Both the position numbers and the translations under genes were made by a program. A stretch of 35,659 nt of DNA. It comes from an uncultured Opitutia bacterium. Lineage in GTDB: Bacteria; Verrucomicrobiota; Verrucomicrobiia; Opitutales; UBA953. Below the pieces are notes generated by a model, which did no database searches, was not told the origin of the DNA, and worked only from the letters and a program-made list of their open reading frames with translations. Location of the stretch: contig CAIKWA010000007.1 of assembly GCA_903831005.1 (NCBI GenBank), positions 1 to 35,659 of the forward strand, written 5' to 3'. Numbering within the stretch: the first letter of the stretch is position 1; the number at the start of each line of letters is the position of its first letter. Shown here in pieces: positions 5,069 to 35,659 of the stretch.

Positions 5069-6793
5069 GTGACGACCGCCGACGACTACGTCATTCAATT
5101 CATTCAGGACAAGGGACTGGTGTCCCCCGCCGATGTGAACGAGGCCCGTGTCGCCGTCGGGACCGCTGCTGAGGGCCAGAATGTCGACACCCTCACTCTC
5201 GCCAAGCTGGTGGACGCCGGCAAGGTAAGTTGGTCCAAGATCACCGGGGCGCTCAGCCTGGAGTTCGATATGGAACTCGTCGATGTGACGCTGGTTACCC
5301 CTTCCGAGGATATTCTCAAACTGATTAGCCGAGAGCAGGCCGAAACCCGCAACATCTTGCCGCTGCAGATGGATGGGGTGGAGCTCCTCGTCGCCATCTC
5401 TGACCCCCTTGATACCGAGACGATTGATTCGATCTCCCGCGTGCTGAAGCTCGCCATCAATCCGAAGCTCGCCCCGCCGGACCTCCTCAAGGAAGCCATC
5501 TCGCGATGCTATGTCGGCGGCCCAATTGGCGGTGGCTCTTCGTATGATGACATCCTTGGGAAGGGCGGCGACGATGGCCTGGCGGTCGAACTCCCCCAGG
5601 GCGGCGACGTCAAGGAAGACGACGCCCCGATTATCCGCTACGTCAACTCGCTCATCGTCGATGCCATCCGTCGCAAGGCTTCGGACATCCACCTCGAGCC
5701 CCTGGAAAAGCGTTTCCGTGTCCGCTTCCGCGTCGACGGTGTGCTGCAGGAGATGAAAGGCCCGCCTAAGCGCCTCCAGCCCTCCATCATCTCGCGACTC
5801 AAGCTCATGGCGGAAGTCTCGCTCGCTGAAAAGCGCATCCCGCAGGACGGGCGCATCCAAGCCCGTACCGGCGGACGTGACATCGATTTGCGCGTCTCCG
5901 TCCTCCCGACCGTCTACGGCGAGTCCATTGTCATGCGAATCCTCGACAAGGAAGGCCTCAAGCTCGGCCTGCCTGAACTAGGTTTCTTCGCCGACGACCA
6001 GGCCAAGTTCCAGGGGCTTATCTCTGGCTCCGATGGCGTCTTTCTCGTCACCGGACCGACCGGCTCTGGTAAGTCGACCACGCTTTATTCTGCACTGAAT
6101 TACATTAATAAGCCGGACCGCAAAATCATCACCGTCGAGGACCCCGTCGAATACCAGATGGCCGGTATCAACCAGGTGCAAGTGAAGCGCGATGTCGGTA
6201 TGACTTTCGCCGCCGCGCTTCGCGCGATGCTCCGTCAGGCTCCGAACATTGTGATGATCGGTGAAATCCGAGATCTGGAGACCGCTGAAATCGCGATCAA
6301 TGCCGCGCTCACGGGCCACATGGTATTCTCGACCCTTCACACCAACGACTCCGTCAGCGCCGTCACCCGTCTCGTTGATATCGGCGTGAAGCCGTTCCTC
6401 GTTTCCGCCGCTCTTCGCGGCGCGCTCGCCCAGCGCCTCGTGCGCCGTAACTGTCAGGCCTGCGCTGCCCCGTACAAGCCAACCCCCAAGGAGCTCTACT
6501 CCATTGGCATGTCTGAGCAGGACCTCGCCAGCGCCACCCCCATGAAGGGCGCCGGTTGCCCTAAGTGTGGCGATCGCGGCTACAAGGGTCGCCGCGGCGT
6601 CTTCGAGATGTTTGTTATCACTGAGGAAATTCAGGAGATGATTTACGGCGGCGCCAATCTCGTCGACCTTCGGCGCAAGGCGCGCGAGGCCGGCATGCGC
6701 ACGATGCGCGAGGACGGCCAGCGCAAGGTAGCCTCGGGCATGACCACCATTGAGGAAGTACTCGGCGCCACCGTCGCCGACGACGTTATCTAA
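5069..6793 (+). CDS. GspE/PulE/PilB-family secretion/pilus assembly ATPase (GTG start)
   Basis: N-terminal MshEN-like region, Walker [28 protein letters not shown], zinc site CQAC...CPKC. Confidence 0.93.
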
Positions 6794-6797
6794 TCCT

Positions 6798-7871
6798 ATG
6801 GCCTACGAGATGAACCAGTTGCTGGAGGCCATGATGGAGAATGGTGCTTCCGACCTGCATATCCACGTGGGTCGCTCGCCTAGCCTACGCGTTAACGGAA
6901 CGATTGTCTCGATCGACGGCACCCCTCTCACCGTCGACGATGCCAAGGCCCTCGTACTTGGCGTCGTGCCGCCGTCCCAACTTGGCCGTCTCGACGCCGA
7001 CGGCGGCTGCGACTTCGCCTTTTCCTTTCGCCAGAAGACGCGTCTACGCGTGAACGCCTTCCGCAGTCATGCCGGCTACGGTATGGTCCTGCGCCTCCTC
7101 CCCTCGAAGATGTTTACGCTCGAGCAGCTGCGTCTGCCCGCGGTCATCAAGGACATGCTCAAGCGTGCCCGCGGCCTCATCCTCGTGACCGGCCCCACCG
7201 GTTCCGGCAAGTCGACCACCCTCGCCTCGATGATCAATTGGATCAATGAGAACGAGCAGGGACATATCATCACCATCGAGGACCCGATCGAGTATACACA
7301 CGCGCACAAGAATAGCCTCATCACGCAGCGCGAAGTCGGCGTCGACCTGCCGTCCTTCGCAGAAGGCGTGCGCTCCGCGCTCCGGCAGGATCCGGACGTC
7401 ATCCTCATTGGCGAAATGCGCGATCTCGAGACCATCGAAGCCGCCGTCACCGCGGCGGAGACGGGTCACCTTGTTCTCGGCACGCTGCATACCTCCGGTG
7501 CCGCGCGTACGGTTGACCGTATCATCGACGCCTTTCCGGCGGGCTCCCGCGACCAGATTCGGGCCCAGCTATCCACCTCGCTTTCCGCGGTCATCTCCCA
7601 GTGCCTATTGCACACCACCGACGACCGCCGCGTTGCTGCCTTCGAGATTATGATTCGGACCGATGGGGTCGCCGCCAAGATTCGCGAAGGCAAGACCTAC
7701 CAGCTCCTCACCGATATCGAGACCGGCGGCGCCCGCGGCATGCGGACCCTCGATAGCGACCTGCTCGCGCTCTTCTTCCAGGGGCTTGTCTCCGAGGAAG
7801 AGATTTTCAACTACTGCCAGAATCCCGAAGCCATGCGCGAGCGCATGCGTGCCGGCGCGCAGTCTCGCTGA
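6798..7871 (+). CDS. pilT: Type IV pilus twitching motility ATPase PilT
   Basis: [81 protein letters not shown] 6798, 4 nt after the upstream stop. Confidence 0.93.
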   Translation: MAYEMNQLLEAMMENGASDLHIHVGRSPSLRVNGTIVSIDGTPLTVDDAKALVLGVVPPSQLGRLDADGGCDFAFSFRQKTRLRVNAFRSHAGYGMVLRLLPSKMFTLEQLRLPAVIKDMLKRARGLILVTGPTGSGKSTTLASMINWINENEQGHIITIEDPIEYTHAHKNSLITQREVGVDLPSFAEGVRSALRQDPDVILIGEMRDLETIEAAVTAAETGHLVLGTLHTSGAARTVDRIIDAFPAGSRDQIRAQLSTSLSAVISQCLLHTTDDRRVAAFEIMIRTDGVAAKIREGKTYQLLTDIETGGARGMRTLDSDLLALFFQGLVSEEEIFNYCQNPEAMRERMRAGAQSR

Positions 7872-7901
7872 ACTGCCTCATCCCTTTAACAACCCATTCC
7901 C

Positions 7902-9587
7902 ATGTTCGACGACCATAGTGACGTGATCCGCGATATCGCCCTCGAGGCGGGCCTCGTGACCCCAGCCCAAGCCGAGGAGATCTGGGAATCCCACGCCACC
8001 ACGGGTAAATCCTTCAGCGAAAGCCTCATGGATGCCGGGCTCGCCGATCGTGCGACCATCCTGCAAGCAATCGCCGACCATCTCAACGTACAGTATTACT
8101 CCGTAGTGCCAGCTGATCCGGGTGATGCGCTGGTTAAGCTCCTCAAGGCCCCGCAGGCCCACAAGTACGTCGTTTTGCCGGTCGCGGACGAAGCCGGTAA
8201 ACTGACGTTGCTTGCCAAGGACCCTTTCAACTCCTCCGTCATCAACGAACTGGGCTTCATCCTCCAGCGCGACATCGAGCTCGCCGTCGCTGATCCCGCG
8301 CAGGTCGAGGCTGCGGTCACGCGCGTTTACGGCGAGGCCACCTCGGCCTCGATGGAAGAGCTGCTCGGCGAGTTCGATCAGGTCGAGGGTGCGGCCGCCG
8401 TAACCGATGAGGACGTGACCAAGCAGGCCAGCCAGGCCCCCATTATCCGCTTCGTCGACCTGGTACTCCAGGAAGGCGTTAAGGCGAAGGCGTCGGATAT
8501 CCACTTCGAGCCTTTCGAGCACGAGTTCCGCATCCGCCTCCGCATCGACGGCTCCCTCTACGAGATGGCGCCCCCGCCGAAGAATCTCGCCTCGGCCGTC
8601 ATCGCCCGCGTCAAGGTGCTTTCCTCCCTGAACATCGCCGAACGGCGCGTGCCGCAGGATGGTCGCATCAAGACCACCATCAGTGGACGTCAGATCGACC
8701 TCCGCGTCTCGACCTTACCCACGCAGTTCGGCGAATCTGTCGTGCTCCGAATTCTCGACAAGACCGTCGTCAACCTGAGCCTCGAGGCCCTCTCGATGCA
8801 GGATGATATCAAGGAAGGTATCCGCGCGATGGTCGGCCGTCCGAACGGTATCTTCATTGTCACCGGTCCGACCGGCTCCGGCAAGACGACCACCCTCTAT
8901 TCCGCCCTTCGCGAGGTAAATACGGAGGACGTCAAAATCCTTACCGCTGAGGACCCGGTCGAATACGAGGTCGAAGGCATCATGCAGGTGCCGATCAATC
9001 ACCAGGTTGGTCTGACCTTTGCGGCCGCGTTGCGTTCATTCCTGCGACAGGATCCGGATACCATCATGGTGGGTGAAATCCGAGATCTCGAGACTGCCCA
9101 GATTGCCGTGCAGGCCTCCCTTACGGGTCACGTCGTGCTTTCGACCCTACACACCAACGATGCCCCGGGTGCCGTCACCCGTCTCATCGATATGGGCCTA
9201 GAGCCATTCCTGATTTCAGCTTCGCTTGAAGGGGTGCTCGCCCAGCGACTCCTTCGCCGGATCTGTAAGACCTGCCGGACACCCTACGAACCCGATAAGG
9301 ATGTGGTGAATATGCTTGGCGTCGACGCCTTGGAAATCGCCAACAAGAAGTTCTACTACGGCAAAGGGTGCCCGGACTGTAACCGCTCCGGCTACAAGAG
9401 CCGCCAAGGTCTTTTCGAACTCATGACGATTTCCGACCAGATGCGCACGCTGATTACGCAGCGAGCGCCGACCCTCGTCCTCAAGCAGAAAGCAATCGAG
9501 GCCGGCATGCGCCCGCTGCGCGAGGACGGCCTCCGCTGCATCTTCGATGGCCTCACCTCGATCGAGGAAGTGCTCAAGTATACCTAA
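7902..9587 (+). CDS. pilB: Type IV pilus assembly ATPase PilB / GspE family (second copy)
   Basis: [46 protein letters not shown], zinc site CKTC...CPDC; MshEN-like N-terminus. Confidence 0.93.
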
Positions 9588-9611
9588 CTTTCATAACACC
9601 CCTAAACTCCC

Positions 9612-10853
9612 ATGCCCGACTACAAGTACACTGCTATCGACCGGACCGGTTCCCAGACTTCTGGCCGCATCGAGGCCGCCAATGACGAGCAGGCCCGCCA
9701 GAAGCTCATGGCCAAAGGCCTGATGGTCACCACGCTCGCGAGTGACGCCGGGGCGGCCAAGTCCGCGGCGACGCCCGCGGCGCCCGCCAAGCGTGGTATC
9801 ACCTTCGGTGCGAAGGTGACGCAGAACGACGTCACGCTCATGACGCGCCAGCTGGCGACGCTGATCACGGCCGGGCTACCGCTCCTGCGTGCCCTCGAAC
9901 TCATCACGAAGCAGGAACGTAATCCGACCTTTAAGACGATTCTCGGTAATATCGCCGAAAGCGTCTCCCAAGGTAACAACCTTTCCGAGGCCCTGCAGGC
10001 CCATCCCAAAGTCTTCGATCGTCTCTTCGTCAATATGATCCGTGCTGGTGAAGCGGGCGGCGTGCTCGACAAGGTTCTCGATCGCCTCGCGAAGTTCCGT
10101 GAAAAGGCCGAGCGCATCCAGAAGAAGGTCAAGTCCGCGATGGTGTACCCCGGCGTGGTTATGTCCGTCGCCATCATCATCGTCTACATCCTGATGGTGA
10201 AGGTCGTGCCTTCCTTCCAGAAGCTGCTGAGCGCCCAGAAGACGGAAATGCCGCCGCTGACAAAGTTTGTCGTCAGCATCTCCACGTTCCTGACGGAGTA
10301 TTGGTGGGCCACCCCGATCTTGATCTTCGGAGTCTACTTTGGGCTGAAGACCTGGCTGGCGACAGAGAAGGGCAAGGAGCTCTTCGACCGCATTATCTTC
10401 CGACTGCCCAAGGTCGGCAGCTTCATCCAGATTGTCTCGGTCTCGCGTTTTGCCCGCACCTTCGGGACGCTCATGGCCTCCGGCGTACCGATCTTGCAGT
10501 CGATTACAATCACTCGCGACACCCTCGATAACGTAGTCATCGCCAAGTCTTTGGAACGCGTTCATGATCGCGTCCGCGACGGTGAACCGCTGTCGGTGCC
10601 GCTCGAACAGTCGGGCGTGTTTCCGCAGATGGTAACCTCGATGATTCAGGTCGGTGAAGAGACCGGCCAGCTGCCCGAGATGCTCAATCGTGTCGCTGAT
10701 ATCTATGACGAAGAAGTCGACAACGCCGTGACTGCGCTGACCTCGATTATCGAGCCGGTGCTCATCGTGTTCCTCGCGGTGGTTGTCGGTGCCATCGTGT
10801 TGGCGATGTTCCTCCCGCTCATTGCTCTCATTACCAAGATGACCGGAGGTTGA
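9612..10853 (+). CDS. pilC: Type IV pilus inner-membrane platform protein PilC / GspF family
   Basis: MPDYKYTAIDRTGSQTSGRIEA N-terminus, TRQLATLITAGLPLLRALE, GEETGQLPEML, C-terminal TM helix. Confidence 0.93.
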   Translation: MPDYKYTAIDRTGSQTSGRIEAANDEQARQKLMAKGLMVTTLASDAGAAKSAATPAAPAKRGITFGAKVTQNDVTLMTRQLATLITAGLPLLRALELITKQERNPTFKTILGNIAESVSQGNNLSEALQAHPKVFDRLFVNMIRAGEAGGVLDKVLDRLAKFREKAERIQKKVKSAMVYPGVVMSVAIIIVYILMVKVVPSFQKLLSAQKTEMPPLTKFVVSISTFLTEYWWATPILIFGVYFGLKTWLATEKGKELFDRIIFRLPKVGSFIQIVSVSRFARTFGTLMASGVPILQSITITRDTLDNVVIAKSLERVHDRVRDGEPLSVPLEQSGVFPQMVTSMIQVGEETGQLPEMLNRVADIYDEEVDNAVTALTSIIEPVLIVFLAVVVGAIVLAMFLPLIALITKMTGG

Positions 10854-10874
10854 GCGATCCCTGCGCGGACAACT

Positions 10875-10905
10875 AAGCCCGGTCCGAAAGGAGCCGGGCT
10901 TTTTT
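10875..10905 (+). terminator. Rho-independent terminator of the pil block
   Basis: AGCCCGG (10876-10882) pairs with CCGGGCT (10894-10900), followed by a T run; just after the pilC stop. Confidence 0.85.
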
Positions 10906-10934
10906 ATGCCTGGAGGCAGATACCATCTGGGCAA

Positions 10935-10978
10935 AAAGGAGGCGGCTTGCATACCCCTATGCAAGCCGCCTGTTTTTT
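10935..10978. terminator. Strong, apparently bidirectional terminator between pilC (+) and tRNA (-)
   Basis: Perfect 12-bp stem GGCGGCTTGCAT (10941-10952) / ATGCAAGCCGCC (10959-10970); followed by TGTTTTTT on + and preceded by AAAAAGGA (T tract on -). Confidence 0.85.
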
Positions 10979-11118
10979 ACTGCTTTATCTTACTTACCCC
11001 ATTGTCCCGTAGGACAAATTTAATACCTGATACCGTGCATTTAATTCCGATCGGTTCAAGCCTTATCATAATCTTTTTGGTCACTTCTTTAAGTGACTGG
11101 CCTTCATGGCCTTAAAAT

Positions 11119-11196
11119 TGGGTGCAGGGGTAGGATTTGAACCTACGACCTTCAGGTTATGAGCCTGACGAGCTAACCGGGCTGCTCCACCCTGCA
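11119..11196 (-). tRNA. tRNA-Met(CAT), initiator type (tRNA-fMet); CCA encoded
   Basis: Reverse complement folds as TGCAGGG TG GAGC AGCCCGGTTA GCTC G TCAGG CTCATAA CCTGA AGGTC GTAGG TTCAAAT CCTAC CCCTGCA C CCA; D-arm and anticodon loop closely resemble known bacterial initiator tRNAs. Confidence 0.93.
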
Positions 11197-11332
11197 ATAA
11201 GTGGGAGGTCGAACACAAAGGGGTGGGGACTGAGTCGCAAGCCATTTCTTGCGGTAGTTCGACCCAGCTCGATGGGCAAAAAGGGTTGAAGCAGTCGGAA
11301 CAGGGGGGAAGATTGTTTACCCCCCTTAAGCG

Positions 11333-13294
11333 ATGAGCGAAGAAACCCCTCCCCCTCAGCCCAACGATTTGCCTCCGGCCGAGACGAAGAAAGTCGAAAC
11401 AGACTCTCTCGTCTCTAAGCGCATGAAGCGTAGCTTCTGGCAGCGCATCGGCGCCAGCGGTCTGTCTGTCTCCCTGGCAATCCACGTTGTACTCGTCTTC
11501 GTCGCGGCGGCTTTCGTTGTCTCGACTGTCACTGATAACGCCAAGAAGGATCCGAACACGTTTGCAACTGGCGCGGGCGGGGGCTCTGGCGGCGAACGCG
11601 TGAAGAGCACCGAGCGCAAGGTCCAGCCGAAGAACGTCAAGACCCTTGCCAAGACGACCACTCGCATCACCTCCAAGAGTGCCACGGCCTCCATGGCTTT
11701 GCCGGATTTACCGAGCTCGGCGTCCGCTTCTTCGATGTTCTCCGGCGCCACGGCCGGAGGCGCCTCCAAGGGCTTCGGTGGCGGCGCGGGTGGTGGTATC
11801 GGCAGCGGTAAGGGTATGGGCTCCGGCGGCGGCAAGAACTTCGTCGCGAGGCCGGTCATGGGCGCGAGTATCTTCTCACAGCGGCTGGCGGTCTATTTTG
11901 ACGCTTCGGCCTCCATGTTGCCCTATCTCGACCGCGTTGAAGCCGAAATCCGTGATAAATTCCCCGACGCCGATGTTTTCCTGAGCAATGGCGTCTTCAT
12001 CGACATCCATGATACTGAAGTGGTCGGAGGAGATAAGTTCAAGGGACAGCCGTTCCTCAACCGGGCGACGGGCCCTGGTACCAAGAAGAACGCCAAGGGA
12101 GAAATGGTCGCGACCGAGACCAATCCGGCCAAGCTGACCAGCCAGGGTCGTGCCATCCTCAAGAAATACGGTAATAACTTCAAGGTGGGCTCCGTCGGCG
12201 GTTGGGTCGACATCCTCAAGGATGAGCGTGCTTATGACGCGTTGGTGATCTTCTCTGACTTCCAAGACGGTATCCGCCAGATCCGCTCAAAGGGCTACAA
12301 GCCCGACAAGGGTATGCGGCCGGATCCGCCCACGGTTTTCTCCGACCGTGGTGCTGGTGGCGGTGGCTTCGCCCTCACGGTGACCTTGATTGCCAATGGT
12401 GGCGCTTCCGGTCAGCCGGTTGTCCTGTGTAAGGACACCACGGGTCTGATTGTCGGCATGGTCGCTATCGGGCAAGGCATCCCTGCCGGCACCACCGTCA
12501 CTGAAATCAAGCCCAACCTCAGCTTCACTCTCAGTAAGCCGCTCACAGCCCTCGCTTCCGGTCGTATCACCTGCAACAATGGCGGGGATAAGCGTACCCC
12601 CGAAGAGAAGAAGTGGGAAGACGAATGGGTCCAGGCCTTCGCGGGCGCTCGCGAAAACAAAGGACCTCGCCTCTACCTGATCAGTACTTCCCGTGCTTAC
12701 GGAAATAAGCCCGGCACGATTTTCCAGCGTTGCGTCGCCGCCTCCGAGGGCAGCGCCATCATGGTGAAGTTTGGTAGCGCCAAGAAAGGCACCAGCACGC
12801 TGAACGACCTCCATAACTATGACGACCTCTACGTCGGCATGCCGGCCAGCGGTCGCGGTATCCCCGATGGGGCCACCCTAATCTCGCTGCCGACTTATAA
12901 GGAGATCATCGACCCGGAGGATCCCGAGAAGAAGCGCAAGAAGCGCGTGATCGACAAGCAGCTGACGATCTCGGCTCCGCTCACCGAAGATTCAACCAAC
13001 ACCGTCTTCGCCTTCACGCCTCTCATTCAGGCGGTCGGTACCCTCGCTAAGGATTCCAAGTCCATCACCGAGGTTTCTGGTTCCATCGACCTCAAGCCAG
13101 GCATGCTGATCCTCGATCCCCGTTTCCCCGCTGGCACCAAGGTCTCCTCGGTCGTGCCGAACAAGGCCGCCATCGGCTTCTTTACGGTCGAGATGTCGGC
13201 TCCGGCGACTGGCGCTGGCGCCAACGCTGTCCTCCGTTTCCGGCCTGCTCAGACCGGTTCAGGCAGTACGCGCGGCGCCGCCCCGACCCGTTAA
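11333..13294 (+). CDS. vWA-like protein with TonB-like N-terminal TM anchor, Gly-rich linker and beta-type repeat modules
   Basis: TM segment SVSLAIHVVLVFVAAAFVV; Gly-rich linker; MIDAS-like RLAVYFDASASM and YDALVIFSDFQDG; three GM..xGxGIPxGTxV..-type modules. Confidence 0.85.
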   Translation: MSEETPPPQPNDLPPAETKKVETDSLVSKRMKRSFWQRIGASGLSVSLAIHVVLVFVAAAFVVSTVTDNAKKDPNTFATGAGGGSGGERVKSTERKVQPKNVKTLAKTTTRITSKSATASMALPDLPSSASASSMFSGATAGGASKGFGGGAGGGIGSGKGMGSGGGKNFVARPVMGASIFSQRLAVYFDASASMLPYLDRVEAEIRDKFPDADVFLSNGVFIDIHDTEVVGGDKFKGQPFLNRATGPGTKKNAKGEMVATETNPAKLTSQGRAILKKYGNNFKVGSVGGWVDILKDERAYDALVIFSDFQDGIRQIRSKGYKPDKGMRPDPPTVFSDRGAGGGGFALTVTLIANGGASGQPVVLCKDTTGLIVGMVAIGQGIPAGTTVTEIKPNLSFTLSKPLTALASGRITCNNGGDKRTPEEKKWEDEWVQAFAGARENKGPRLYLISTSRAYGNKPGTIFQRCVAASEGSAIMVKFGSAKKGTSTLNDLHNYDDLYVGMPASGRGIPDGATLISLPTYKEIIDPEDPEKKRKKRVIDKQLTISAPLTEDSTNTVFAFTPLIQAVGTLAKDSKSITEVSGSIDLKPGMLILDPRFPAGTKVSSVVPNKAAIGFFTVEMSAPATGAGANAVLRFRPAQTGSGSTRGAAPTR

Positions 13295-13316
13295 TCGGCA
13301 TTCTGGATGTTACTTT

Positions 13317-13347
13317 AAAAGGCGAAGCCATTAGGCTTCGCCTTTTT
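13317..13347 (+). terminator. Rho-independent terminator after the first vWA paralog
   Basis: AAGGCGAAGCC ATTA GGCTTCGCCTTTTTG hairpin plus T tract. Confidence 0.85.
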
Positions 13348-13424
13348 GTTGGGGACTTTGCCTCATGTCCGCACAATCGGCTTTTCGAGCAAGTCATTTT
13401 CGCCGATGATGTTCTTACCCCGCC

Positions 13425-14183
13425 ATGAGACGCCTCCGATTTATCGCTGCTGCCTGTTTCGCCTTAATGACCGTGTTGGCCCATGCAGCGACGACGGTCG
13501 TCGTCACCGAGCCGCGCGTCGTCACCAATCCGTCGGGGCCCCGTATCGCCGTCTATCTGGACTGCTCCAACTCGATGGAGTCGTACCTCGCCGGCGTCGA
13601 AGCTGAGATCCGTAAGCAGTTCCCTGACGCCGATGTCTTCAGCGTCCCGCACATCAAGGTCTGGGTCGACGGCACCGTCGTCCGTGGCGGGGCGACCTCG
13701 GTCCTCGCGCATCGTCCTCCGGCCACGGGGCCGCGCGTCTCCCTCGACGCCAGTCGGATGACTCCGGTGGGCCGTGAGATTCTCGCTCGCTATGCGGGTA
13801 ACTTCGAGGCCGGCTCGGTCGGCGCATGGATCGACATCCTGCGTCGCGAAAAGCGTTATGACGCGTTGGTGGTATTCTCTGATTTTAACGATCAAGCCCT
13901 GCAGACTCGCGCCGACGCCCGCGTGGTCTACCTCGACGCCGCCGAACAACGGGCCCTACCCAAGGCTATCATCGACACGCGCACCGTCGCCGAGATGGTC
14001 TGGGAAGACTCCTGGGTCGGCTCCTTCGATCTGGCCCACGCGGGCAAGGGCCCGGTGCTCTATCTTTTCTCCACGCGGAATCCGGCGACGCGCGTCCTGC
14101 AGAATTGCGCCGACGTCTCGGGGGGTAAGTTCACGCTAGTCGATTGGTTGCGTCCAGACGGCCCGCCTAAGCCCGCGAACTGA
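13425..14183 (+). CDS. Secreted vWA-like paralog (signal peptide, no anchor)
   Basis: MRRLRFIAAACFALMTVLAHA signal peptide; RIAVYLDCSNSM (DxSxS); GSVGAWIDILRREKRYDALVVFSDFND shared with the neighbours. Confidence 0.82.
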   Translation: MRRLRFIAAACFALMTVLAHAATTVVVTEPRVVTNPSGPRIAVYLDCSNSMESYLAGVEAEIRKQFPDADVFSVPHIKVWVDGTVVRGGATSVLAHRPPATGPRVSLDASRMTPVGREILARYAGNFEAGSVGAWIDILRREKRYDALVVFSDFNDQALQTRADARVVYLDAAEQRALPKAIIDTRTVAEMVWEDSWVGSFDLAHAGKGPVLYLFSTRNPATRVLQNCADVSGGKFTLVDWLRPDGPPKPAN

Positions 14184-14277
14184 GTACTCGCTCAGGGGGA
14201 TTTCTCTTGTCGGTAGGCAGGGTATATCCGTGTGCCCGTTCGCTTGATGCGAGCCGCATGTGCTTAGCCTTGGGGGG

Positions 14278-15360
14278 ATGGATCATCCCGCATCTTCCTT
14301 GGTCGGTCGGCGCGCTTCGGCACGTTCATGGCGCAGTCTCCTGCTTTCCTTAGGCTTGCACCTCCTATTGGTCGTCGTCGCGTGCTGGATTGTGTTTCGT
14401 GAACCGGTCGCACCGCCAAGGCGTGAATTCACTGCGCATGCAGTTGCCGGGGGCAAGTCGGGTGGACCAGCCACAACTCATCCCGTTCAACGTAAGCCGA
14501 AGGTGCCGACTCCGCAGAAACGACTCACTTCTAAGTCTGCCAGCTCGACCTTGGCGTTGCCGCCAATGAAGGCGATAACGCCGGAGATGGGGTTGGCTGG
14601 ACTTTCTGGCGGACAAGGGAAGGGCGGCTTCGGGCGCGGCCAGGGTGCCTTCGGCGGCAAAGGTCTCGGCGCCGGGTTGGGTAACCGCGTCGGGTTTGTG
14701 GGTCGCCCGGTGATGGGCGCCTTCATCCGGGCCAAGCGCGTCGCGGTCTATCTGGATTGCTCCGGCTCGATGCGATCATACCTGCCGCGTGTCGAGGCGG
14801 AGATCCGGAAGGAGTTTCCCGACGCGGACGTCTTTCGTTTCGACGGTGCCCGGGTGGTCGGCTTGGGCGATATGGTCGTCTTCGGACGACGTTTCCGCGG
14901 GGTTGCCCCACGCCTACGTGAAGGACCGACGCAGACTTTGGTCGAGACGCTGACGCCTCATGGGCGGACCGTGCAGGCGAAGGTCCGGACGGCTTGCGAG
15001 AAGGGGTCGCTCGGCGCGTGGATGGATCGCCTGCTGGCGGAGTCTTACGATGCCTTGGTGGTCTTCTCCGATTTTCAGGATGGCGTCAGGCTCTATGAAT
15101 CAAAGAAAGGCGAACCGAAGATGGTCTATTCAGATAGCTCCTATCATAAGGTAGGCGGAAGTCTAAAGACCCATACCCGTTGGCAACGGGAGTGGCTCGA
15201 GGCCTTCGCCAAGGCTCCGCAAGGCGCTGGGCCGAGGCTTTATCTGTTCACCGTCCAACAGGAACCGCAGGCCTTCCTCCAGGCCTGCGTGGCCGCGTCG
15301 GGAGGTACCTCGACCTCGGTATCCTGGCTGAAGAAAGGCGGCCGGAAGGCCTCGCCTTGA
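14278..15360 (+). CDS. vWA-like paralog with TonB-like N-terminal TM anchor and Gly-rich linker (start ATG 14278; GTG 14260 possible)
   Basis: LLLSLGLHLLLVVVACWIVF TM segment; RLTSKSASSTLALP and GRPVMGA motifs shared with the 11333 protein; RVAVYLDCSGSM and YDALVVFSDFQDG. Confidence 0.83.
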   Translation: MDHPASSLVGRRASARSWRSLLLSLGLHLLLVVVACWIVFREPVAPPRREFTAHAVAGGKSGGPATTHPVQRKPKVPTPQKRLTSKSASSTLALPPMKAITPEMGLAGLSGGQGKGGFGRGQGAFGGKGLGAGLGNRVGFVGRPVMGAFIRAKRVAVYLDCSGSMRSYLPRVEAEIRKEFPDADVFRFDGARVVGLGDMVVFGRRFRGVAPRLREGPTQTLVETLTPHGRTVQAKVRTACEKGSLGAWMDRLLAESYDALVVFSDFQDGVRLYESKKGEPKMVYSDSSYHKVGGSLKTHTRWQREWLEAFAKAPQGAGPRLYLFTVQQEPQAFLQACVAASGGTSTSVSWLKKGGRKASP

Positions 15361-15397
15361 CGGTTGCACCCTTGGGCTGGACGGCTTGGATAGCCGC

Positions 15398-15817
15398 ATG
15401 GTCCCTTTCACGGCAGAATACCGCGCTAATTTCTCCGACACCGATGCCGCGGGTATCGTGCATTTCTCCACGATCTTCTTCTGGGTTGAGGCGACTGAGG
15501 AGGCGATTTTCCGTCAGCTCAAGCTCCCGTTCCTGCGCACCGAAGGCACTAAGCTGACCGGCTTTCCCCGCGTTCGCGTCGAGTGCGATTTTCTTTTCCC
15601 GATTTACCGCGATGACATCGTCACCGTCTCCCTCACGCCGATCGAAATCGGTGACAAGAAGCTCGTCTGGGGCTTCGCCGCCGCGGTCGGCGAGCGGGCC
15701 GTCGCGAAGGGCGCCCTGACGACCGTGTACGCGTGGCGCGAGGCGCAGGGGCCGATGTCGGCTGCGCTCGTACCGCTCGACATCAAGACGGCGTTGCAAA
15801 AGCATTTCGGAGCGTAA
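15398..15817 (+). CDS. Acyl-CoA thioesterase, 4HBT/YbgC hotdog family
   Basis: YRANFSDTDAAGIVHFSTIFFWVEATEEAIFRQL matches the 4HBT D-x-x-G-hhhh-x-x-hhxxxExA pattern. ATG 15398. Confidence 0.85.
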   Translation: MVPFTAEYRANFSDTDAAGIVHFSTIFFWVEATEEAIFRQLKLPFLRTEGTKLTGFPRVRVECDFLFPIYRDDIVTVSLTPIEIGDKKLVWGFAAAVGERAVAKGALTTVYAWREAQGPMSAALVPLDIKTALQKHFGA

Positions 15818-17211
15818 TGGCTGACGCGGCGAACCAGTCGGGCACGGTCTCCCGTATCGGCTTGGTCGTCGTCGTTGTCGCTGCCTTACTCTGGTCCGCG
15901 ATAAGTTTCGTTCCTCCGGGGCCTTTGCATGCGGACGAGGCGGTCCAGTGGTCCCTCGCCAAGGAGCTCTCTGAGGGCACGCCCTATAGCTCGCATCAGG
16001 ATAAGTTTCACGGGCCGACGCTGGCCACCGTCCTGCTTATCTCCGCTAAGCTGACGGGCACCGCGCCGACCGATATGTCCGAGCATTATCTCCGCAGCGT
16101 CGTCTCCCTCTTCCTCGGACTCATGGCGGCGGCGAGCTTGATTCTCCCGGGAGTCAGCCGGCCAGTCCGGTACGTGACGGCTGCCTTCATCGTGCTCACC
16201 GGCGGCTGCACGCCGTTCAGCTATTACTTTGTGCAAGAGATGTTGCTGGTGACGGGCTTCGTCTGGGGCGTTGCCTTATGGATGCGCGCCGAAGGCGCTG
16301 CGATTGATTCCCGCTGGTGGATGCTCTCCGGTGCGGCTTTCGGTTTCGCCCTCGCCTGCAAGGTTACCGCGGCGGCTTACCTATTTCTGTTCATCGTGGC
16401 CTTGCTGCTCTCTCGTCGGTTCATTCCCGATCGGCGCTGGCTTCGTTTCGGCTTCGGCCTGGTCGCTTCCTGGGCGTGTTTCCAATCCGTCGGCTTCACG
16501 GATTTCGGAGGCTTGAAAACCTGGTGGCTACAACTGGCGCGGGCGCTCGGCGTCGCCAGCGGTCATTCCGAAGATACCTTGCTCGCCGTCAGTCTGGCTC
16601 CGTGGGGCTTGGCCGCGGCATGGCTGGGGGTCTTCGCTCTGGCCCGCTCCGGTCTTTCGGTGGCTGGATGGTGGCGCCGGCAGGAGGCCGATTTGCCGTG
16701 CTTGGTGGCTGGCCTCGTCTTCCTGTTTCATCTCGCACTGCCTTACAAGACGCCGTGGCTCCTCCTGCTGGCCTTCTCCCTGCCCCTGACGCTTGCCTTG
16801 CCTTACTTTCTCGTTGGCCAAACTGGTCGGGCAGTGGTGCTCGCACCCGCTTTGTTGATGATCGCCCTGATGGCCCAGTCTTCACTGTCTTCTCATTCGC
16901 GGACGAGCTCCGACGTCATTCACTTCCAGGGCAGGGTTGCGAATCTAGCCAAGGCTTATGGCGATAAGTTCTATATCGCCGTGGACGGGGGGCATTACTG
17001 GCCGCTGCCTTATTATCTGAGGGCGTATCGGGTCGGCTATGCAGACTTCCCCCAGGCCGCGAAGGCGCCCTTACGACTCATTCCCGCGAGCGACGCCAGC
17101 GAGCCCGTCGTCGCTGGCTATATGGTCTCAAGCCTAACCCTCCGTGAAGGCGGGGATCGTTACTGGGTGTTAGTTGCCAAAGGCTACGAAAGCGTTTTTA
17201 TCGGAAAATAA
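15817..17211 (+). CDS. Multi-TM glycosyltransferase-like (GT39/PMT, TIGR03663-like) membrane protein
   Basis: Early periplasmic-loop HADEAVQWSLAKEL and HGPTLATVLL, many TM helices; ATG overlaps the upstream stop by 1 nt. Confidence 0.6.
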   Translation: MADAANQSGTVSRIGLVVVVVAALLWSAISFVPPGPLHADEAVQWSLAKELSEGTPYSSHQDKFHGPTLATVLLISAKLTGTAPTDMSEHYLRSVVSLFLGLMAAASLILPGVSRPVRYVTAAFIVLTGGCTPFSYYFVQEMLLVTGFVWGVALWMRAEGAAIDSRWWMLSGAAFGFALACKVTAAAYLFLFIVALLLSRRFIPDRRWLRFGFGLVASWACFQSVGFTDFGGLKTWWLQLARALGVASGHSEDTLLAVSLAPWGLAAAWLGVFALARSGLSVAGWWRRQEADLPCLVAGLVFLFHLALPYKTPWLLLLAFSLPLTLALPYFLVGQTGRAVVLAPALLMIALMAQSSLSSHSRTSSDVIHFQGRVANLAKAYGDKFYIAVDGGHYWPLPYYLRAYRVGYADFPQAAKAPLRLIPASDASEPVVAGYMVSSLTLREGGDRYWVLVAKGYESVFIGK

Positions 17212-32450: not shown

Positions 32451-32482
32451 AAAACAAAAAGGCCGCCCGAGGGCGGCCTTTG
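32451..32482 (-). terminator. Rho-independent terminator of the exbB-exbD-exbD operon
   Basis: GGCCGCCC GA GGGCGGCC stem (32461-32478); on the minus strand it is followed by TTTTTGTTTT. Confidence 0.8.
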
Positions 32483-32501
32483 CGGGCGGCTAGGATGCCG
32501 C

Positions 32502-32945
32502 TTACTCCGTGTCGGATACCGCGAACGTGACGTTCGTGATGTTCGCCTTGGCGAGGCAGTCGAGGACGTTGATCACGCGTTCGTAGCGGGCGTTCTCTTC
32601 GGCTTGGACTGTGATGAGCAGCTTCGTCTTGGACTGCTCGGCGGCCTGTCCCATCTGCTTCATCTGGTTAAAAAGGCTTTCGAGGAGCTTGTCGCCGGGC
32701 GCACCAACCGAGTCTTCGTTGAGGGTGATTTCGCCAGACTCACTGATACCGATGGTGACTTCGTCGGGAAGTTCGGTCTCCTTGGCGGTCTCAGCGTTAC
32801 CGGGAAGGGTGGTCTTCAATTCATGTTCAACCTTCACGGCACCGGCCATGACCATGAAGAAGAGCATGATCACGAAGACCACGTCGATCATGGGAGCGAT
32901 CTGGAAGCCGGGGGCTGCGTCTGGAATTTGTTCGCGCTGTTTCAT
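32502..32945 (-). CDS. exbD: ExbD/TolR-family biopolymer transport protein (second ExbD)
   Basis: FQIAPMIDVVFVIMLFFMV TM with conserved Asp; ERVINVLDCLAKANITNVTFAV C-terminus. Confidence 0.9.
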   Translation of the reverse strand: MKQREQIPDAAPGFQIAPMIDVVFVIMLFFMVMAGAVKVEHELKTTLPGNAETAKETELPDEVTIGISESGEITLNEDSVGAPGDKLLESLFNQMKQMGQAAEQSKTKLLITVQAEENARYERVINVLDCLAKANITNVTFAVSDTE

Positions 32946-32948
32946 GGC

Positions 32949-33389
32949 TTATTCCTCGTGGTTGAGGCCGGAGAAGGCGATGTTGTCGATGCCGGCTTCG
33001 GCACCCCATTCGAGGGCCTTGGAGATGTATTTGGCGTGGCACTCCTTGTCGGCTCGAATCAGGAGGCGGTACTTCTCGTTCGTGCCCTTGCGGTCGGCAA
33101 GTTCCTTGGAGATGCCTTCTTTGTCGTTCGGGTCGATTTCCCGGTCGTCGATCTTGTACTTCGCCTGTCCCGTGGTCTTGTCCCAGGAGATATTGATGAG
33201 CCCGGCGGCCGCCTTGTCGTCGCGCTTCACGCCATTGGAGGCGACGGGCAGGGAGATGTTCTTGTCGACCTTCAGCACCTGCGACGAGGTGATGGACATG
33301 AAGAAGATGAGCAGCACCAAGAGCACGTCGATCATCGGCGCGACCTGGAACTCTGGTTCCCCTTCTCCGCCTCCTCCTCCGCCTGCCAT
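32949..33389 (-). CDS. exbD: ExbD/TolR-family biopolymer transport protein (first ExbD)
   Basis: Poly-Gly N-terminus then FQVAPMIDVLLVLLIFFM; YISKALEWGAEAGIDNIAFSG. Confidence 0.9.
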   Translation of the reverse strand: MAGGGGGGEGEPEFQVAPMIDVLLVLLIFFMSITSSQVLKVDKNISLPVASNGVKRDDKAAAGLINISWDKTTGQAKYKIDDREIDPNDKEGISKELADRKGTNEKYRLLIRADKECHAKYISKALEWGAEAGIDNIAFSGLNHEE

Positions 33390-33421
33390 GGCTGTTCTGT
33401 TTGGTTAGGGTTGGAAGGAGC

Positions 33422-34210
33422 TTAAGACTGGACGCTCGAGGAAGCGTTCCAATCCGGCTTGGCAGCGTAGATCTCTTCGTCGCCGACCTTGCGGCCTTCG
33501 ATTTCTTCGTAAGGGAAGGCACGGAAGAGGCCGGTCACGATTTCAGTGATATCGTGGATGCCCTTGTTGATGCGGTTCGCCAGGAGGTAGTAAGAGATGA
33601 ACGCTGGGATCGCGATGAAGAGACCCGAGGCAGTCGCCACGAGCACTTCGCCGATAGCGCCGGAGAGCTTGGAGGGGTCGCCCACGCCGGAAGTGCCGAG
33701 GGTTTCGAACGCACTCATCATGCCGGTCACCGTGCCGACTAGGCCGATCATCGGGGTGCAGACGCCGATCACGGACAGGTAGGAGGAGCGGCCCTTGAGC
33801 TCGGCATTGACGCGGGTGATTTCAGAAATGATCGCTTCTTCGGTCATGGTCTTGCCATCCGGGGTGAAGGCGACGCCCGCACGGACGACGTCAGCGACGG
33901 GGGAGCCAGCGGTCTTGGCGAAGCTGTAGGCGCCGACGTAGTCGCCTTTCTTGAAGAGCTCGCGGAGCTGGGTGACGTGATCGGCTGGGTAGAGCTTGCC
34001 GGCGCTCGTGCGCATGTAGCCGTCGACGATAAACCAGATCATGGCCACGGAGCAGGCCGTAATCGGGTACATGACCCAGCCGCCTTCGACGAACAGGTCC
34101 ATGAGGGTCTTCTTGTGAGCACCGCCAGCGGCTTCTTGGGCCGAGGCAGCGATAGTCATAAGGCCGAGGAAGACGGCGCTGAGGGAGGTGGAACGGAAGT
34201 TCATCTTCAT
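33422..34210 (-). CDS. exbB: MotA/TolQ/ExbB proton channel family protein with signal peptide
   Basis: Signal peptide MKMNFRSTSLSAVFLGLMTIAASA; LSVIGVCTPMIGLVGTVTGMMSAFETLG...IGEVLVATASGLFIAIPAFISYYLL. Confidence 0.93.
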   Translation of the reverse strand: MKMNFRSTSLSAVFLGLMTIAASAQEAAGGAHKKTLMDLFVEGGWVMYPITACSVAMIWFIVDGYMRTSAGKLYPADHVTQLRELFKKGDYVGAYSFAKTAGSPVADVVRAGVAFTPDGKTMTEEAIISEITRVNAELKGRSSYLSVIGVCTPMIGLVGTVTGMMSAFETLGTSGVGDPSKLSGAIGEVLVATASGLFIAIPAFISYYLLANRINKGIHDITEIVTGLFRAFPYEEIEGRKVGDEEIYAAKPDWNASSSVQS

Positions 34211-34262
34211 GATGATGGGGTGTAGGTTGGTTTTAGGTTAGGATTTGGAAAGGGGCAAGGAC

Positions 34263-35279
34263 TCACTTGTTGGCTTCGACGGCTTCTTCGGCGGCGAGTT
34301 TGGGCTTAGACATGATGACTCCCTCGGGAAGGGGGCCGCCGGCGGCAATCTTCTTCTGGTCGGCCTCAGCCTTGGCGCGCTCCTCCTTGGGGAGCATGCG
34401 TTTAGCTTCTTCGGCCTCCTGGGAGACGGGGAAAGAGACGATGACGTCGTAGAGGTAGCGGTTCGCGATAGCCTCGAGTTTCTGTTCGCGCAGGGCAGGG
34501 CTGTCCATGCCACGGAAGCAGCGGGCGGCACCGAGCAGGGCTTTGGGGATGAATTCAGTCTCGGAGCCGAAGAAGACCGGTACGCGGAGGTAGGTCGTCA
34601 TCGCGGCTTCGTACTTCTTCGAGGCAAAGAGCGAATTCCCTTTGACGATATGGAGTCGGGCCTGGAGTTCGTTGCTGTCGACCTTGGTGAGGAGTTCGGT
34701 CGATTCGGCCACGACGGCGTCATGTTCACCTTTACGGGCGCGTTGCATCAGGCGCGCGAGCTGGATCTGGGTAGCGACTTCCGGTAGTTTGGCGGCGTCT
34801 TCTTTCTCGAGATTTTCGAGGAAGGCGGCGGTGGCGGCGTCGTTGGCGAGGCGGTCGAGGGCGTCGAGCTTCACGATGGAGGCCTTGACCCACCAGGAGC
34901 CCGGCACGTTCTTGATGGGCTCAAAGAACTTCAGCACGGCTTCGACGTTGTCGAGAGCCTTGGCAGGTTCGCCGCGGTTGACGTTAGCCTGAGCCTCCTT
35001 GAGGCGGGCGGGAGTCGGCCAGATGACCTCGGTGACTTCAGAGAGCTTGCGGGTGAGGGTGACTTCGATGCCGCCTTGGTTGCTCGTGCGATCGATGGTA
35101 CCTTTCACCACGTTAATCGTGCCTTTCTTCGGGTCGATCACGGCCTTCGGTGGGATGGAATTGTCCAACTTGAAGGGGTCGTTAATTTCCCAGCGCTCGC
35201 CCTTAAAGACGAAGGTCTGGGCTGGCGCGGTGGCGGCCGCAATCAGGGCGAGGGCCGGAAGGAAGAGGGAGAGGCGCAT
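34263..35279 (-). CDS. Exported TPR-like protein of the ExbBD operon
   Basis: Signal peptide MRLSLFLPALALIAAATAPAQ; helical-repeat region; 5 nt from the next TPR gene, 52 nt from exbB. Confidence 0.7.
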   Translation of the reverse strand: MRLSLFLPALALIAAATAPAQTFVFKGERWEINDPFKLDNSIPPKAVIDPKKGTINVVKGTIDRTSNQGGIEVTLTRKLSEVTEVIWPTPARLKEAQANVNRGEPAKALDNVEAVLKFFEPIKNVPGSWWVKASIVKLDALDRLANDAATAAFLENLEKEDAAKLPEVATQIQLARLMQRARKGEHDAVVAESTELLTKVDSNELQARLHIVKGNSLFASKKYEAAMTTYLRVPVFFGSETEFIPKALLGAARCFRGMDSPALREQKLEAIANRYLYDVIVSFPVSQEAEEAKRMLPKEERAKAEADQKKIAAGGPLPEGVIMSKPKLAAEEAVEANK

Positions 35280-35284
35280 GTTGA

Positions 35285-35659
35285 TCAGAGTCCGAGGAGG
35301 AAGGCTTTGGCTTCCTGGGCTTCGCGGGTGTCCTTGATACGATCCTTCTCGAGCATCTCCTTGAGGAGCACCTTGGCGGCGTCCTTCTGGTTGAGCTTCG
35401 TGGCGAACAGCTTGGCGGAAGCGAAATAGGACTTGGCGGCCCAGACCTCATATTTCTTCCAGGTCATATAGCAGCGGCGATAGTAGGCGACGGCTTCATT
35501 ATAGCCCTTCTCGTCGGTCGCCTGGCGTTCGGCCATGAGACCCAGCCAGTAGAGAGACGCCGCGGTCTTCTCGCCGCGCCACTCATTGGTCTTGGCGATT
35601 TCCTCGAATTCATTCTTGGCCTCGGCGTACTTCGACAGCTCGGAGAGCGAGCGGGCGCG
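35285..35659 (-). CDS. TPR-like protein, C-terminal part (continues beyond right window edge)
   Basis: Frame stays open to the edge: ..RSLSELSKYAEAKNEFEEIAKTNEWRGEKTAASLYWLGLMAERQATDEKGYNEAVAYYRRCY..; helical-repeat pattern. Confidence 0.7.
   Translation of the reverse strand, partial: RARSLSELSKYAEAKNEFEEIAKTNEWRGEKTAASLYWLGLMAERQATDEKGYNEAVAYYRRCYMTWKKYEVWAAKSYFASAKLFATKLNQKDAAKVLLKEMLEKDRIKDTREAQEAKAFLLGL

Follow-up and report, generated by a model that had tools for sequence, protein, structure and literature searches.

ExbBD/TolQR motors are known from textbooks for driving TonB and TolA, in both of which a His-bearing helix docks on the ExbB pentamer, such that the motor does work on the helix. 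A further kind of output was described in 2025 by Williams-Jones et al. (PMC12204202), who reported vWA force transducers in the PVC group, encoded downstream of TPR-tolQ-tolR-tolR, together with an AF3 model of operonic relatives in which the His lies at the motor site. The same paper describes a second family, TPH-vWA, which is paired with tolQ alone, has no exbD, and carries a proton-binding Asp in its TM helix and no SHLS motif. Given this publication, the idea of a vWA transducer is not in itself new.

The DNA considered here, hereafter the window, is a stretch of 35,659 nucleotides from an uncultured Opitutia bacterium; it forms contig C7 of a 62%-complete genome of 1.55 Mb whose closest named relatives are Opitutae MAGs. 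Two of its proteins, encoded from positions 11333 and 14278, are most probably force transducers of the inner membrane that resemble TonB and TolA in type, except that a vWA-like head takes the place of TonB_C; their docking on an exbBDD motor is proposed. Like TonB and TolA, they have an N-terminal TM helix with S-x3-H, a periplasm-spanning disordered segment, a C-terminal domain and a motor of the ExbBD/TolQR type; unlike them, they have no TonB_C or TolA_C, and their linker is Gly-rich. With the vWA force transducers of PMC12204202 they share a single N-terminal TM helix with its conserved motor-binding His, a disordered linker of ~100 residues before the head (AF2 pLDDT mostly <50, ~42-140), a C-terminal vWA fold (from a profile match and an invariant DxSxS, the fold search being weak), motor genes in the order TPR-tolQ-tolR-tolR and the absence of TonB_C. 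As in TPH-vWA, a vWA domain is tethered by a TM helix and there is a link to a TolQ-like protein; the window proteins differ in that the anchors have His and no TM Asp, and in that two exbD genes are present.

The tandem vWA-B genes and their head

Three vWA-B genes, vWA-B denoting the window-type head group, lie in tandem on the + strand. The first encodes transducer 1 (653 aa, 11333..13294), which consists of a cytoplasmic N-terminus, an S-x3-H TM anchor, a linker and a vWA-like head. The last encodes transducer 2 (360 aa, 14278..15360), for which AlphaFold2 gives a single helix at residues 18-41, disorder over ~42-140 and, at 142-355, a compact alpha/beta head with pLDDT mostly >90. The architecture given in the preliminary description, in which a TM helix with S-x3-H is joined by a Gly-rich linker to a vWA-like head, holds for both proteins. 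Moreover, a re-reading of the sequence puts the proposed motor-docking motifs, identified by sequence and conservation, exactly where that description had put them, S47-LAI-H51 at 11471..11485 (+) and S24-LGL-H28 at 14347..14361 (+). The common motifs TSKSA, RPVMGA, DASAS/DCSGS, YDALV and FSDFQDG are likewise all in place, with the MIDAS-like DxSxS, as judged from sequence and homolog alignment, occurring as DASAS at 11900..11914 (+) in transducer 1 and as DCSGS at 14755..14769 (+) in transducer 2.

Between these two genes lies a third paralogue beyond the two first described (252 aa, 13425..14183, +), which has the vWA head with DCSNS kept, and a signal peptide as judged from its sequence, and is without an anchor; at a guess, it may act as a soluble partner, competitor or adaptor. 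In transducer 1, extra beta-type segments interrupt the head and also come after it: the repeats, of the pattern VGM..G.GIP.GT.V, occupy residues about 345-650, and in the orthologs L034 and L035 just the first of them is present.

The nature of the head was addressed in several ways. No Pfam vWA model matches in a scan of the window proteins, and Foldseek with the full vWA-B model returned weak matches, including the vWA domains of CLCA1, Rpn10 and TFIIH p34/p44, none of them at E <= 0.001, probably because the disordered part was included in the query. Profile-profile comparison of window-type heads with Pfam-recognised vWA heads, on the other hand, gave a probability of 91.6% (E 8e-7, 51 columns), and the DxSxS is invariant in 25 of 25 aligned homologs; the vWA-like domain first suggested from the sequence is borne out by these two results. 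The window-type head appears to be a divergent and apparently undescribed branch of vWA. The absence of TonB_C, also proposed at the outset, is upheld, there being no Pfam match to TonB_C or TolA_C in the window transducers.

One anchor-linker module with four kinds of head

A search with the 14278 protein recovers vWA homologs and, in addition, proteins that match its N-terminal half alone and whose C-termini are other domains. The 140 anchor-bearing proteins, a number in which some genes count twice because two collections supplied them, sort by head into exactly four groups: vWA-A (42), PA14 (39), alpha/alpha-toroid (30) and vWA-B (29). Profile comparison shows the N-terminal modules to be homologous for every pair of heads (probability 99.3-100%), and among the heads themselves it finds no relation except that of vWA-A with vWA-B. 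The PA14 assignment comes from Pfam, with one member over the cut-off, and from AlphaFold2 models which Foldseek matches to sugar-binding PA14 domains (E 2e-6), while the toroid assignment comes from Pfam SQHop_cyclase_C, at or above its cut-off.

Conservation of the anchor motif was read from 60 matches to a linker-only profile, in which the His was not used for selection, and which was run on genomes new to the profile at the time of fetching, a few matches being from the same species as earlier-fetched loci. A TM helix is present in 59 of these, and the TM His in 56 of the 59, a proportion in which some selection may remain given that the profile was trained on anchors earlier chosen by their His. 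At position -4 from the His, the 56 anchors have Ser (49), Ala (5) or Thr (2). By comparison, [STA]xxxH is found in 45 of 452 unrelated TM-bearing ORFs from the same loci, from which it follows that the TM His is not there by chance. Within vWA-B homologs Ser-x3-His is kept in 29 of 29, so the S-x3-H of the preliminary description is indeed conserved among orthologs, with Ser often replaced by Ala or Thr in the wider module. The three exceptions are operonic vWA-A anchors (L265, L267 and L275), in which contact with the motor must differ or be lost.

The rest of the SHLS motif of TonB and TolA (Leu, Ser) is replaced in module anchors, and in this respect the window type departs from TonB/TolA: S and H are met, with Ala/Gly at +7 and Val/Ile at +11. 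A profile search of the TM segment against TonB/TolA chains in the PDB gave no match, which with a query of just 39 positions is uninformative. The transducers of PMC12204202 have a predicted beta-strand motor box following the TM helix; inside the linker of the present module is a conserved RIxS...LP segment, for which single-chain AF2, the motor being absent from the model, predicts no strand.

The occurrence of mutually unrelated heads (vWA, PA14, alpha/alpha-toroid) on the same module is apparently undescribed: the main text of PMC12204202, with which it contrasts in this regard, mentions no PA14 or squalene-cyclase-like heads, and a full-text literature search, its scope stopping short of subscription papers, preprints and the supplement of PMC12204202, found no paper on them. 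What is apparently new relative to PMC12204202 is, in other words, the multi-head, multi-client picture, together with the divergent and motor-detached vWA-B branch. In one locus, two tandem transducers after exbBDD (L157:9696-11090 and 11110-12708) have near-identical anchors and linkers followed by a vWA-A and then a PA14 head, which looks like a recent head exchange.

Motor genes and their linkage to the module

The exbB-exbD-exbD operon noted earlier as lying about 18 kb from the vWA genes is confirmed at 34210-32502. It comprises, on the - strand, exbB (33422..34210; Pfam MotA_ExbB), which the tree assigns to a motor class that is operonic with transducers in relatives, exbD copy 1 (32949..33389; Pfam ExbD, with the Asp of APMIDVLL present) and exbD copy 2 (32502..32945; Pfam ExbD, with the Asp of APMIDVVF present). 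Upstream of exbB is a gene for a small TPR-like protein (34263..35279, -), conserved in this position across the motor class. The preliminary description saw no TonB next to these genes, which is true locally, but a TonB_C protein is encoded elsewhere in the genome (G000:C192). A second contig of the bin, G000:C153 (L284), is ~90% DNA-identical to the motor region of the window (32456-35659) and probably belongs to a co-binned sister species, such that the bin would be mixed; from it, a large TPR gene (1137 aa) can be seen to precede the small one, the window ending inside the large gene.

In an ExbB tree from a short search, with some long branches, the motor class forms one clade (SH-aLRT 100), separate from TonB-linked ExbBs, within which the ExbBs of the window's family are sister to those operonic with vWA-A (and one with PA14) from the same order, Opitutales (SH-aLRT 93). 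In other Verrucomicrobiota the anchor-linker module is encoded immediately after exbB-exbD-exbD. Counted on identified anchors, it lies <=400 bp downstream of exbD for 34 of 42 vWA-A, 28 of 30 toroid and 8 of 39 PA14 genes, compared with 0 of 29 for vWA-B. A distance of ~17-19 kb separates vWA-B genes from exbBDD in the window, and likewise in seven relatives from two genera. Taken with the tree, the absence of vWA-B beside exbD is most simply read to mean that the window's family lost its linked client and has clients elsewhere, the operon being split in this clade. The window differs in this from the transducers of PMC12204202, as it does in its divergent heads and its duplicated genes, one copy being anchorless, although motor adjacency is not a strict criterion, because PMC12204202 says 'often'. 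In L152, L163, L170, L173 and L185, a second and different exbB-exbD pair comes soon after the toroid client, followed by a TPR protein.

A genome survey of the kind first proposed bears on the same point. Among 384 Verrucomicrobiota genomes, a motor-class ExbB (E <= 1e-60) is found in 39, and 37 of these also have the module (Fisher p 2e-26, kinship left uncorrected), the two without it being those whose ExbBs score lowest. A further 44 genomes have the module but no motor-class ExbB at that threshold, and where their loci were read, most show a more divergent exbBDD right by the module; every module genome that was checked for ExbB has one, and orthologs in ExbB-lacking genomes were accordingly not found. 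A genome has a single motor-class ExbB, apart from G050 and the window's bin with two each, but can have as many as ten modules. In G082, a 97%-complete genome, motor and modules are kept, and neither TonB_C nor a TonB-receptor plug is detected.

Proposed coupling to the motor and its alternatives

Our proposal is that the exbB-exbD-exbD genes (32502-34210) encode an ExbB5-ExbD2 motor on which the S-x3-H helix would dock, that proton flow through the motor would work the helix, and that the periplasm would be spanned by the Gly-rich linker so that the vWA-B head may grip a periplasmic or outer-membrane partner, perhaps via its MIDAS-like site. For the window transducers we infer the docking, the force and the partner. 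The original suggestion that vWA replaces TonB_C on an ExbBD motor finds good support in the linkage of the motor class, the 37/39 co-occurrence and the conserved His. Also in favour of coupling are the homology of the N-terminal modules across heads, the place of the window's ExbB in the operonic motor clade with the TPR gene kept upstream, the gene content of G082 and the AF3 model of PMC12204202; against it are the 0/29 count for vWA-B, the presence in these genomes of other ExbBs and a TonB, the replaced Leu and Ser of SHLS and the three anchors without His. Necessarily, as vWA-B never adjoins exbD, its coupling rests on module homology and co-occurrence.

An alternative is that the transducers are driven by the proton motive force but, in the window's clade, through another ExbB/TolQ of the genome, the orphan exbBDD serving a stand-alone TonB or other clients. 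In its favour, there are 4-6 ExbB/MotA-type genes per genome, stand-alone TonB_C genes do exist and no vWA-B gene adjoins exbD, yet it is unlikely, as the orphan exbBDD is of the class that is elsewhere operonic with the module and co-occurs with it, and the TonB-linked ExbBs fall in another part of the tree. That the proteins are plain membrane-tethered ligand-binding or adhesion proteins, with the helix a mere anchor and nothing energised, appears decidedly unlikely: both vWA and PA14 are folds known for binding, sugar-binding domains of adhesins are similar to the PA14 heads and three anchors are without the His, but neither a polar TM His fixed across distant relatives nor operonic linkage and co-occurrence with a proton motor would be expected of a plain anchor.

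Just upstream of the vWA genes lies pilB-pilT-pilB-pilC (5069-10853), and over 5069-17211 the series runs on through the vWA genes to one gene for a YbgC-like thioesterase and another that is glycosyltransferase-like, an order that is maintained in relatives of two genera; YbgC is also a gene of the tol-pal operon. Despite the pil-vWA-ybgC order in these relatives, membership of the vWA genes in the type IV pilus system, for example as surface or assembly proteins, is highly improbable and was set aside, since a tRNA on the opposite strand separates the two sets, the loci fetched from further members of the family and class that carry vWA-B (L052, L054, L058, L067, L233, L238, L253 and L255) showed no pil genes, and elsewhere the same module, with other heads, stands beside exbBDD.

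For the phylum as a whole, we lean towards a modular platform driven by the proton motive force, in which a genome would normally have a single, dedicated ExbB-ExbD-ExbD motor that serves many transducers built on one anchor-linker module. The periplasmic heads of these (vWA-A, vWA-B, PA14 sugar-binding-like, alpha/alpha-toroid) would be interchangeable, having been swapped in the course of evolution within the motor operon as well as at unlinked sites. As it is the head and not the anchor that varies, the head most likely determines what a transducer pulls on or grips. If the motor does take many clients with exchangeable heads, then 5:2 motors would be a general means of mechanical work at the outer membrane, with a swappable domain determining the output. 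The family allows a clean test of which part makes a client (the His, the linker motif) and of which targets are pulled by the vWA, PA14 and toroid heads, and the module suggests a role for groups of Verrucomicrobiota proteins whose domain annotation is weak or lacking. In three transducers (L149, L157 and L160), a cytoplasmic SAM domain precedes the S-x3-H helix, identified by Pfam SAM_1 (down to 2e-18) in L149 and L157 and by sequence in L160; from the cell interior, such a domain could bring motors together or recruit them.
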